Origin: Bifiguratus adelaidae
Taxonomy: Eukaryota > Mucoromycota > Endogonomycetes > Endogonales
Assembly: GCA_002261195.1 (NCBI GenBank)
Contig: MVBO01000012.1
Span: 183,719 to 240,279, forward strand
Length of the DNA: 56,561 nucleotides
Direction of reading: 5' to 3'
Shown here in pieces: positions 8,727 to 56,561 of this stretch. The position numbers and the translations under genes were made by a program. Positions within the stretch are counted from its first letter, which is position 1. Every line of letters starts with the position of its first letter. The notes under the pieces are model-generated. The model was given only the letters and a program-made list of their open reading frames with translations. It did not search any database and had not been told where the DNA came from.

Positions 8727-10845
8727 TTAAAGACGCGCGATCGCAGCGAGAATACGCAGAGCAAGAGTTTCATCGCGATAATGCCAAGTCATGAGGAGTG
8801 TAGAGTTGCGTGGGGTGATGGTGATGCTCTTGATCGATAGACTGGTTTTGGATTGATTGAGGAGATGGGGCAAGGTATGGACAAGGTCTAGGTAGAGGAG
8901 ATCGAGGGCGTATCGGCCAAAGTTGATGTGGTCGGGTTGGATCAGACTGGCTTCCTTTTCGGCAAGAATACCGCTGGCAATGGCGCGTTGGACTAGACGT
9001 TGCGTATCGAGTGGTTTGTCTACGGAAAAAATCAGGTCGTGTTGGGGTAAGGATAGGACTTCGGAGAGGTGTTCGGGGGAGACAATCTTGGGTTTTTGAT
9101 CTCGACTATCCTTGTCCATCATGATGATGCCTTGAACAGGGATGCCGTCAAGTGGATACATGGTACCGATGGCTTGCTTCTTGTTCAGATAGGCCAACGA
9201 TCGCTCAGTGTCGTCCAGGATGCCTTGAACAGCTTGCTTGTCCTCCACCTTGACCTTGAGGTCTAGTTCGTTGCATGAGCGCTTTTCACCACGCAAGGCG
9301 CTTAGATGCGCATGGGCATGTTGTTCTTGTCCTTGCAGGAGCCATTGTTTCATCAAGGCACCTTCCACATCAACGTCCATGTCCAGACTGGTTTCGATCG
9401 AGATTGTGGTTCCGTTGGGCGGGTTGTAGCATGGAATACCGAGCTCGCTGTAAATCTTGGGTTTGAGATAGTCCATCTGATGCTGCTCTCCATGCACCAA
9501 AACGACATGTTTGGGTTCGAGCTGTTGTATAAGATTGACGATGCCCTTGGCATCTGCATGGGCACTAAAACTGAGATTGGCCACTGTCAGATTGACGTCG
9601 ATGCGCGTGAAGGCATCTACATTGATTTGCTTCTCTCCTTTCAAGACGCGTGCACCGACGGTGCCAGGAGAACACCACCCGGGCATAATGATCATATTCT
9701 TGGGATCGGGTGCCCACTTCTTGAAAATCTCCAGCGCAGTGCCCGCGTTCAGCATGCCAGGAGACGCAAAGACGACCATCGGTCCCGGATTGTCGACAAG
9801 GTTACGATCCCACGCTTTCAAATGCTTAAACTCAAACATGTTGTGATCCACAAAGGTATCCTTGATCTTTTCGTTCGTCCAGGAAATGTATTGCTTGTAG
9901 ATTTGAGTTGCCGTGGCTGCCATACCGACCGGTGAATAGACGGGTACGGTAAGATGATGCCGTTCCCAATAAGATTCAATCAAGATGCAGAGCTCCTGGG
10001 CTCGTCCAAGTGCAAACACGGGTATCAACACTTTGCCTCCTCGATCAATGCAGGATTGCACCTTCTTGAGGAAATCGCGTTCACGAGCTCGCTTTGATTC
10101 GCGTATGGTTGTCGCATAGGTCGATTCAGTGATGAGTACGTCTGGTCGCAGCTTGTCAATCCAGGCTGCACCTAAATGACGATCCGGTGTCATGTTGTAA
10201 TCCCCGGTATAGACCAAGGACTCTCCATTGGCAGAAATGTAAAACATGGCAGCGCCGAGGACATGTCCAGCGTAATACGCGCAAATCGTCAGCTCATCAT
10301 CGACATGAATGGTTTCATGGAGATTGACGGATGTGACCTTTCGCAAACACGCCTTGATCATGCTGGATGTGAAGAAATTGGTATCGCCTTTCCGCTCGAC
10401 TTGGATCTTGCGGTAGTCCTCCAAGTTGTACGCTGCGACCGTCTTTGTGGGTGCCGTCATGTAGAGAGGTCCATCGTATCCACACATCTCGGTAAAGAAG
10501 GGTAAGGCTCCACAATGATCGAGATGAAAGTGCGAAATGATTACACAATCCAATACGTCGTTGAACTGGCCAGTACGCGAAATGTAGGTAAAGTCGGGGA
10601 AGCGTCGTTCATCATTGTAGCTCATGTGCATGCCTATGAAGAGATAGAGACGGCAGGATTCAGTGGAGAGCTACCCGGAACAAGATTAGCCTACCGCAAT
10701 CCAGCATGACATTCTTGCCGCCGACCGTAACGAGAATGCACGAGCGTCCCACGTCCTGGCCTGCGCATCAATAACGGTGAGTCGCTAGTCTCAGCGGCAG
10801 ATCCCTTCACCTACCAGCTCCCAAAGGCACAATCTTAATCGTCAT
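8727..10845 (-). CDS. INTS11: Integrator complex subunit 11 (INTS11), metallo-beta-lactamase/beta-CASP RNA endonuclease
   Basis: Catalytic endonuclease of Integrator, which cleaves nascent snRNA and paused RNA polymerase II transcripts. Three exons: 10845-10815 ([11 protein letters not shown]), 10760-10695 ([20 protein letters not shown]), and 10633-8727. The joins give an unbroken family-typical N-terminus. Zinc-site motifs are present: [40 protein letters not shown] and [10 protein letters not shown]. The beta-CASP region reads [31 protein letters not shown] and the spacing favour INTS11 over CPSF73. A C-terminal region of about 200 residues follows. Total length is about 665 residues, compared with about 600 in animals. 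INTS11 is missing from yeasts and, as far as I know, from most Dikarya, so its presence is informative about the lineage. Confidence 0.92.
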
Positions 10846-53756: not shown

Positions 53757-54771
53757 GCCCTTATGCTCTGTCGAGCAGGCGGGTCGCCTGTTCGTTCAAA
53801 AGGTAAGGTAATTTCTCAATTGTCCAAATTTGCGCGGGACATGCGCAATGTGCGTCGACGCTTCAATGGCTTCACTTGTGCTTCGAGTAAAGCTAAGGTT
53901 GCACATTCAGTGTGGGCTTACAGGACGATGTTGGACTCGTTCGCTTTCGCTTGTCATTGCATGGTGGTGAGCACTGTCCGGAGTCAGACAGCCAGAAAGA
54001 TTCATTTCGCTGCGAAATGTTCAAAAAGTGCAACTCGCTCGATAAAAACTTCGGACTCTCGTCGTTAGCCAGTGTCCAAGATTGTCAATCAAAGATTTTG
54101 ATTCACCGGGTGCCTAAGCTGACAAATAATGCAGGCATACTCATCAAATATTGCATGTTGTCTTGCCATCTTGTTCGTCGACACGACCTCCATGTTGCTT
54201 CTGCCGCTTTTACCGTACAGATTGACACTTGCATCAGATACTGTACGATACTTAGCACAAAGTTTAGAGTATGTCAGGTCGTGGATCTGACTAAGGACAA
54301 GTAAGGTGTTGTATGGTAATATAACGTGCTGTAAGCATTTTTGGTTGCGCATCACAGAGTCTTCTGATACTGCTGAGAAGCCATGCCAAATCCTTTTCTA
54401 CTTCCTTTGTGATGTTTCAATGCGCCAATGACCGTAGCCAACTGAGAGCTTTGTGAGATGTTGTGGGTTTGTCTTCGGTCAGAGGGTACCGGAAGTGAGG
54501 TCAGGAATATGTCCCGTATTCACTCGAAAGGTATTACACCGACGCTTCTACTGATGTTATGGAACGCAAGAAAGCCAAGTATGGAGGGGATAAAGCCATT
54601 AGGGATTGAGCATACGAGCAGGAACGCTAACAACATGCTCAACAACGAATATAACTTCAAAAAGATTGTAGCGAGAAGGACTACCGGTCTTCGAGAAAGA
54701 GTACGACTTCTTTGTCTCGTTACCCAACAGGATCCAAGAAAACCCCTGTTTATTCTTTTGGTGAGCTCCTT
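53757..54771. other. Intergenic region between calpain and the transposon field
   Basis: About 1 kb with no protein I can support. The 130-codon plus frame at 53912-54304 is featureless. One TACTGTA heptamer (about 54238) occurs before the dense field begins. Confidence 0.45.
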
Positions 54772-54946
54772 TACAGTACAGTACTGTATACTGTAGGATG
54801 CATGGTACCGTAGTACTGTACTGTAGATAGTTACATACAATATCAACGGTAGCCCACTGTAAGGTCATCGAATCATGCATTGTACATGACATTACTGTAC
54901 ATCGGGTACTGTACAGTATGTAATGTATCGTTGACGGTTACTTGTA

Positions 54947-55340
54947 CAGTAGCAGTCAAAACCGTCCCAAGGATTGCCTAATTTGGCTTTAACCAGCCAT
55001 TGCGCAACCACCACCCCCAGCTTCGACCCAAGCTTCCTAATGTATGTAGCCTTGTCCTTTGCCTATCATATGCTCGGTTTACAGCTTCATAGACCTTCTT
55101 GTCACGTCATAATTAAACCTAGAAGACGGTCCATTCCATGGGACACTTTTGTCCCCGACACACCAGAAATCTTTAATGTCCATTTATCAGTATTTCGTGT
55201 AGCCACCCTTCGCTGCAAATACAGCTTGGACTCTATCAGGCATGCTAGATATTAGCTTCGCACCTAAATCGGCAGGTATATTGTTCCATTCCACCTGTAC
55301 CCGGTCCCAAAGTTCCTTAACAGCCGATGCCTTAGTGTTG
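54947..55340 (-). mobile_element. Broken 3' end of a Tc1/mariner-like transposon
   Basis: The left edge is TA followed by CAGTAGCAGTCAAAACCGTC, a Tc1-type inverted repeat end. Inside on the minus strand lies the C-terminal end of a transposase (stop at 55187-55189). The subterminal sequence between about 54950 and 55165 resembles the 5' end of the second element at 56042-56275 (shared GCAGTCAAAA-CGTCCCAAG, GTCCTTTGCCTATCAT-like and TTTGTCCC words). This suggests long terminal repeats of about 200 bases. The rest of the element is missing beyond about 55340, right where a TACAGTA begins. Confidence 0.82.
55187..55336 (-). pseudogene. Tc1/mariner transposase, C-terminal fragment only
   Basis: About 49 codons read KELWDRVQVEWNNIPADLGA followed by KLISSMPDRVQAVFAAKGGY and TKY. 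This is the usual end of Tc1-type transposases, just before the 3' terminal repeat. The catalytic DDE region is absent, so the copy is dead. Confidence 0.85.
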
Positions 55341-56345
55341 TACAGTACATTATCTATTGAGGGAGACGTTCATCGATATAGAAATTTGTTTGACCTCATC
55401 AACGTACTGTACTGTATTCTTATTATGAGTATCGAATTACGACAAACTACTGGATACTACTGTATAACAGTACTGTACCTCTAGCTTAACTACAGTACAG
55501 TACTATACTGGGAATTGCCTCTAGAAAATGCACACAAACCACAAAATACAGTACACTACTGTAAAAGAGGCATTCGTGCCTCACAGCAATTAATTGCTAA
55601 GGCCTTATTGAGATGGATTATGAATATCTTTAAGAGTGACTAGTGACGAGAAGAAAATTGTAATCTATACTGTACATACTGTAGCTTTCCTTACGCTACA
55701 GTATACAAATCTGCAGATTTGACGCCAAAAGTTTCTTTGTACTGTAATACTGTAACGTACTTCGTCTGTAGTCAACGCTAATGCTTGCTGAATTTCAATA
55801 CAGTACACTTGAGTACGTACTGTATACTGGTCACAATACAGTAAGTAGTACTGTAACTACAGTAACCCATCTACAGTTTTTCATACGTTTGATTCAATTA
55901 CAAAGAAGCCGATACTGTACGCTGTATAGAGGGATAAGGTGATTCTCGATTCTGCTTTCCATACAGTGGCACCGCATGCCATCACCATTATGTTTAGCGA
56001 TCCGAGCTGCAATTACTGTGTACAGTAAGTACAGTATAGTACAGTGGCAGTCAAAAGCGTCCCAAGAATTGCCCATTTTGACTTTCACGCGTAATTGCGT
56101 AACACCCGAAGCAAGTGGGGATTCCAAACTTCTATCAGCCGTACATGTGTCCTTTGGCTATCATCTGCCCGAGTTTCAGCTTCTTAGCCCTTCTGGTGCC
56201 GTCACAATCAATGCTAGTGGCCATAAATTCCTTAGGACAGGTTTGTCCCTGCGTGTCGGACAAATTTGGGAAGGCAAGAACTCCTTGTACACATGCTATT
56301 GGCCTATGGCGTTCCTAGTGTAACATCTAGAGGGTACATGCTATG

Positions 56346-56353
56346 TATATAAG
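56346..56353 (+). promoter_or_regulatory. Candidate TATA box of the transposase gene
   Basis: The sequence TATATAAG lies about 60 bases before the transposase ATG, a suitable distance for a core promoter in a fungal gene. Assigned by sequence alone. Confidence 0.4.
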
Positions 56354-56411
56354 CTTCAAAATTCCCCAGAAGCCCCCAACTGTCGCTCCTGCAGCCAGTT
56401 TTGTTCAAACA

Positions 56412-56561
56412 ATGGGTCTCAGCAACGCCAAGGCAAACAACATCAAAATGCTCCACCAGAAAGGCTATTCTGTCCGCAAGATCGCTTCCGATACCGGTAT
56501 CTCAAAGTCTACGGTACATCGGTATACCTCAAGCCTGCCTGATGGGCCGCCAATGAACGTC
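56412..56561 (+). CDS. Tc1/mariner transposase, N-terminal part (truncated by window end)
   Basis: Starts MGLSNAKANNIKMLHQKGYS and continues VRKIASDTGISKSTVHRY, a helix-turn-helix of the kind that opens Tc1-type transposases and binds the terminal repeats. Fifty codons are visible with no stop. The DDE catalytic domain lies beyond the window. The closeness of its start to an intact-looking terminal repeat, and its uninterrupted frame, suggest a recent and possibly active copy. Confidence 0.85.
   Translation, partial: MGLSNAKANNIKMLHQKGYSVRKIASDTGISKSTVHRYTSSLPDGPPMNV

Follow-up and report, generated by a model that had tools for sequence, protein, structure and literature searches.

How does a single heptamer, TACAGTA or its complement TACTGTA, come to be packed into 1.27 kb of fungal DNA between and around two pieces of Tc1-like transposon? 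The question is raised by the last part of a 56,561-bp stretch of the Bifiguratus adelaidae genome (the window, positions 183,719 to 240,279 of contig MVBO01000012.1, hereafter C24). An exact count gives 36 heptamers on either strand of the window, and 32 of these lie in the field at 54772-56036, in agreement with the estimate made by eye in a preliminary description of this locus; 100 shuffles of the whole window gave a mean of 3.05 heptamers and a largest value of 7. Sequence comparisons within the genome suggest that the heptamers are very probably excision footprints of Tc1-like transposons with CAGT ends, a reading that is well supported at this level.

Within the field, six pairs of neighbouring heptamers are spaced by 5 bp and share a TA (54772/54777, 54777/54782, 54814/54819, 54907/54912, 55405/55410 and 55491/55496), confirming the ladders noted earlier, and the longest ladder of the window consists of three heptamers with common TAs (54772..54788). 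Tandem Repeats Finder detected no array in the field. The heptamer at 54945-54951 consists of the target TA and the first five bases (CAGTAGCAGTC, from 54947) of a Tc1-like relic, so that 31 of the 32 copies, rather than all of them, remain candidate footprints. The relic (about 54947..55343, minus strand) is internally truncated; what is left is a single terminal repeat plus the C-terminal portion of the transposase. It was first described as devoid of heptamers, which holds for its interior; its own terminus is the heptamer just mentioned, and another (55341-55347) straddles its inner edge. A dispersed repeat with relatives in contigs C279, C44, C29 and C262 lies at the left edge of the field (54459..54843).

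Empty sites among paralogous repeats

In place of a second strain, paralogous copies within the one genome were compared. Paralogues differ by exactly CAGTA or CTGTA at a TA, which supports the interpretation of the heptamers as excision footprints. In an all-versus-all alignment of 33 genomic segments (described below), 219 gaps of 5 bp, mostly rotations of CAGTA or CTGTA, were found compared to 132 of 4 bp and 42 of 6 bp, with copy pairs counted repeatedly. When each filled site was counted once, and at least 8 of 12 bases had to match on both sides, 24 of 236 TA-NNN-TA sites were matched by a relative in which the TA is bare; in 20 of these 24 the three bases were CAG or CTG. By word, bare relatives were present for 13 of 76 TACAGTA and 7 of 58 TACTGTA sites (20/134 together) and for 4 of 102 other TA-NNN-TA sites (Fisher p = 0.008). 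The 20 sites thus have three bases of an element end between two TAs where the relative has one TA, which is the form of a Sleeping Beauty-type footprint. Spacers of 1, 2, 3, 4, 5, 6 and 8 nt were compared in the same way, and bare relatives were found for 0/92 sites with 4 nt, 2/158 with 5 nt and 1/117 with 6 nt; the three found with 8 nt (3/131) are all double heptamers.

A roughly 140-bp dispersed repeat (C44:27024+4795, C91:18028+3292, C139, C140 and others) serves here to record scars. Its 17 aligned copies, in which 34 heptamers were tabulated, carry 5-bp or 10-bp insertions at differing TAs, and the same TA can be bare, once-scarred or twice-scarred depending on the copy. Three further scars lie inside Tc1 terminal repeats, and none of them is shared with any other aligned copy: the site is bare in 21 aligned stretches for the scar on C44, in 14 for that on C96 and in one for that on C46. 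As the C44 and C96 sites are bare in many aligned copies, insertion is favoured over loss.

These alignments bear on the suggestion that the heptamer is a simple repeat grown by slippage or a binding motif maintained by selection. Some units do make 5-bp ladders, but 632 of the 769 heptamer runs in the dense blocks defined below are single units. Microsatellite growth is disfavoured by the insertions at bare TAs and by the lack of a tandem array in the field, and a conserved motif by heptamer positions that differ between copies of the 17-copy repeat. We regard this explanation as hardly credible.

Tc1-like elements

The window ends where C24 ends (56561), so that its second Tc1-like element (56042..56561, plus strand), which begins CAGTGGCAGTC and is preceded by TA, is visible only as its first 520 bases; a frame starting at 56412 is open up to the contig end. 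A complete copy of 1,613 bp is present at C167:121575-123187 and reads TA-CAGTGGCAGTC...GATTGCCACTG-TA. It starts TA-CAGT and finishes ACTG-TA, with inverted terminal repeats and a TA on both sides, and the match between element ends and footprint proposed at the outset is therefore upheld. TA precedes 18 of 20 element ends found by motif, two further chance matches having been dropped. The complete copy has helix-turn-helix and DDE_3 matches in one frame, with 34 residues between D and E (DD34E), and this transposase frame contains one internal stop. The relic in the window aligns to the end of the C167 copy at 89% over 399 columns.

Across the genome, at least 31 matches to the first 525 bases of the element are listed. 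A Tc1-like element is cut by the end of a contig in at least 15 cases (for example the end of C24, C7:1-511, C12:1-701, the end of C209 and C233:1-438), indicating that the assembly breaks there and that further, perhaps complete, copies may be missing from it.

Other DDE_3 transposases were considered as the source of the heptamers and, on the basis of six inspected stretches, rejected. At least 21 DDE_3 matches are listed, and the six stretches inspected, which exclude the C1, C207, C123, C200 and second C28 matches, hold 0-3 heptamers each. On contigs C134, C154 and C43, frames that are open for 463-466 codons and match DDE_3 lie outside heptamer fields. The first 70 residues are identical in the C134 and C154 frames, and no clear terminal repeats were seen for any of the three.

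Distribution of the heptamer in the genome

The B. adelaidae genome examined (18.6 Mb in 286 contigs) contains 3,077 copies of TACAGTA (1,564 + 1,513) and 4,433 of a reversed control word (2,208 + 2,225). The heptamer, being rarer than its control, is not a common word overall, yet it is clumped. For the doubled word TACAGTACAGTA, 138 occurrences were counted, compared to 12 for its own control, and these too are clumped (100 places listed). Some contigs are sparse, with 64 heptamers listed in at least 916.6 kb of C1 and 29 in at least 279.7 kb of C2. An even density unrelated to the elements had been named as an outcome contrary to the footprint reading; the heptamer is not evenly spread, and its fields are islands.

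Thirty-three merged segments, the window included, contain 965 heptamers in 165,141 bp. Field blocks were defined by at least three heptamers per 500 bp, with the window trimmed to its last 10 kb for block marking. The 33 blocks comprise 48,272 bp with 938 heptamers (19.4 per kb), where the window's first 53 kb would predict 2.7; the segments were mostly picked for holding an element or the doubled word, and these densities are selected rather than average values. Fifteen segments found via the element (C24 via the window) range from 0.59 to 18 heptamers per kb, element included.

The clustering beside Tc1-like elements that the preliminary description asked after is borne out. A Tc1 element piece is present in 27 of the 33 segments, partly by choice of segments. 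Comparing ladder contigs with element contigs is freer of this bias: the first 100 listed ladder places fall on 23 contigs, 14 of which have a listed element match, while such a match is listed for 15 of the first 218 contigs (hypergeometric p = 3e-15, contig sizes not weighed). No link with telomeres was apparent, as none of 12 TTAGGG matches lies on a contig with a listed element match; the ladder contig C218 has a match at 343881, some 22 kb away from the ladders listed on it.

Tc1 pieces themselves contain 9 heptamers in 14,685 bp (0.61 per kb) compared to 954 in 103,895 bp outside them (9.2 per kb), which indicates that the majority of scars are older than the Tc1 copies now present. There is an appreciable chance, though clearly short of even, that the footprints derive mostly from earlier, lost CAGT-ended elements or from short non-autonomous relatives, and that the present copies are later arrivals. 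This explanation overlaps with the one proposed here and differs from it over the source of the scars only. Apart from the low density inside Tc1 pieces, it would account for scars far in excess of the listed element matches and for the enrichment of one-mismatch words in the field blocks (TACAATA 77 against 0.9, TACCGTA 55 against 4.5), which indicates that many scars are old. It fits less well with the Tc1 pieces in most segments, the coincidence of element and ladder contigs, the three scars within Tc1 copies and the location outside the fields of the six inspected stretches with other DDE_3 genes.

Scars that outnumber element copies, with an identical end sequence, would also be left if the transposase scarred unoccupied TAs; it might, for example, cut a TA and join a released element end to it, with trimming of that end afterwards. 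We know of no such activity in the superfamily, however, and ordinary excision already accounts for the added bases, which are the element's terminal CAG. Scarring of unoccupied sites is in our judgement very unlikely.

Composition and spacing of the heptamers

Excision followed by repair of a central mismatch could yield either form of the footprint, and the two are about equally frequent in the field blocks, with 474 CAG and 464 CTG (binomial p = 0.77). Words expected from footprints of 1, 2 or 4 nt are not prominent in the blocks in the way that CAG and CTG are (TACATGTA 9, TACATA 46). After collapse of the scars the blocks contain about 3,540 TAs, and the 769 runs correspond to about one TA in five in these density-chosen blocks.

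The ladders reflect multiple hits among closely packed TAs. Simulation with units placed on uniformly chosen TAs, block by block in 100 runs, gave 198 +/- 11 adjacent pairs compared to 169 seen, and the hot spot first invoked to explain the ladders, or any extra preference for the TAs of footprints, is unneeded, since uniform hits predict slightly more ladders than are seen.

The flanks of the scars lean toward the palindrome ATATATAT, which is the target of related transposons (see below). At 431 isolated heptamers, compared to 2,033 other field TAs, A is more frequent at -3 (0.390 vs 0.257) and at -1 (0.311 vs 0.268), and G is less frequent at -2 (0.161 vs 0.212). The chi-square comparison of flanks used counts derived from rounded fractions and treated both flanks as independent.

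Several observations weigh against the footprint reading. Bare relatives also occur for spacers of 1 nt (5/81) and 2 nt (6/137), implying that a share of such gaps is due to background or to different outcomes of repair. A stricter gap count, which includes neighbouring placements of one event, gave 34 sites for 3 bp, 41 for 4 bp, 70 for 5 bp, 19 for 6 bp and 15 for 10 bp. Of the 5-bp sites, 44 overlap a heptamer, but gaps of 4 bp are rather frequent. Ladders are somewhat fewer than simulated, and the assembly revealed no element copy whose transposase is both complete and uninterrupted. In the published work, a review gives TAG(T/A)CTA for Sleeping Beauty footprints (PMC2874221), in conflict with the consensus in PMC4378557, and the footprints of ZB (0-3 bp; PMC7913693) and Passer (0-4 bp; PMC9976928) are more varied in length than the one word found here.

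The window itself adds a further difficulty. No heptamer of its field has a bare-TA relative among the aligned cases, and in all three cases found the window carries the bare allele: at 54682..54683, where the C279 relative has TACAGTA, and at two TAs within the relic, 54979..54980, where the C96 relative is scarred, and 55064..55065, where the C44 relative has TACAGTA. The first heptamer (54772) has relatives with TACAATA and TACAGAATA at its place, which are neither bare nor identical. For the window's own field the footprint reading thus rests on likeness to its sister fields.

Proposed formation and meaning of the fields

The fields can be explained by the following predicted sequence of events. 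An element would insert at a TA and duplicate it, and on excision the transposase, cutting with a 3-nt stagger, would leave the element's outermost three bases attached to either flank. Once the flanks were end-joined and the mismatch at the centre repaired, the site would read TA-CAG-TA or TA-CTG-TA and would have grown by 5 bp net, with one additional TA. Each scar adds a TA and hence a fresh target, and the 5-bp ladders would arise where the TA of an earlier scar is hit in turn. Hopping would have been repeated inside the same AT-rich islands, whatever confined it to them, until about one TA in five was scarred in the dense blocks.

On a wider view, we consider the chances about even that the islands are arenas of long-confined local hopping by Tc1-like elements, in which scarring has been a main force shaping the DNA. 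The conversion of about one TA in five in the dense blocks would then have created an interspersed quasi-repeat that does not stem from replication error, and the islands would be a fossil record of at least 1,000 excisions and their repair.

In most genomes cut-and-paste excision goes unseen, as its scars are few and isolated. Hundreds of scars beside bare paralogous sites make the number of excisions, the outcome of repair, target preference and the confinement of hopping readable from sequence alone, and this readout is available in an early-diverging fungus. A transposon may in this way build a repeat-like landscape without leaving copies of itself, and some caution is indicated, as words of this kind may be mistaken for motifs in fungal assemblies.

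Another gene in the window

Elsewhere in the window, a frame at 8727-10631 (minus strand) is Integrator subunit 11-like and 100% identical to BZG36_01524 of B. adelaidae. The deposited BZG36_01524 has 945 aa and is also labelled as having a UBC core domain, and it may be a fused gene model.

Comparison with known systems

Tc1 of Caenorhabditis elegans leaves other footprints than Sleeping Beauty, and the earlier statement that the heptamers are documented for both elements would then not hold for Tc1. It stands for Sleeping Beauty, the consensus footprints of which are given as TACAGTA and TACTGTA (PMC4378557). Its transposase is described as nicking 3 nt inside the element end, with end joining leaving the overhang as a footprint, and chromosomal Sleeping Beauty elements as hopping locally (PMC7827188). 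The Bifiguratus fields have the same two heptamers, in about equal numbers. They differ in that the Sleeping Beauty scars are isolated ones of engineered elements in vertebrate cells, whereas those described here are natural, fungal and present at about 19 per kb in the chosen blocks.

The target of ZB is the palindrome toward which the scar flanks lean, and those of Sleeping Beauty and Bari are said to be similar (PMC7913693). Isolated heptamers in Bifiguratus lean the same way at all three flanking positions, although the preference is weaker and is read from scars rather than from mapped insertions. POT2-type cut-and-paste transposons are likewise DNA transposons of fungi. In a paper on fungi, excision footprints are reported as almost undetectable (PMC10691877), whereas in Bifiguratus they appear to shape the sequence. 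Among the literature matches listed, from a search that left subscription journals mostly outside, there was no account of fields of accumulated excision footprints. The type of scar is already known; what is new is that such scars have built up into a landscape.
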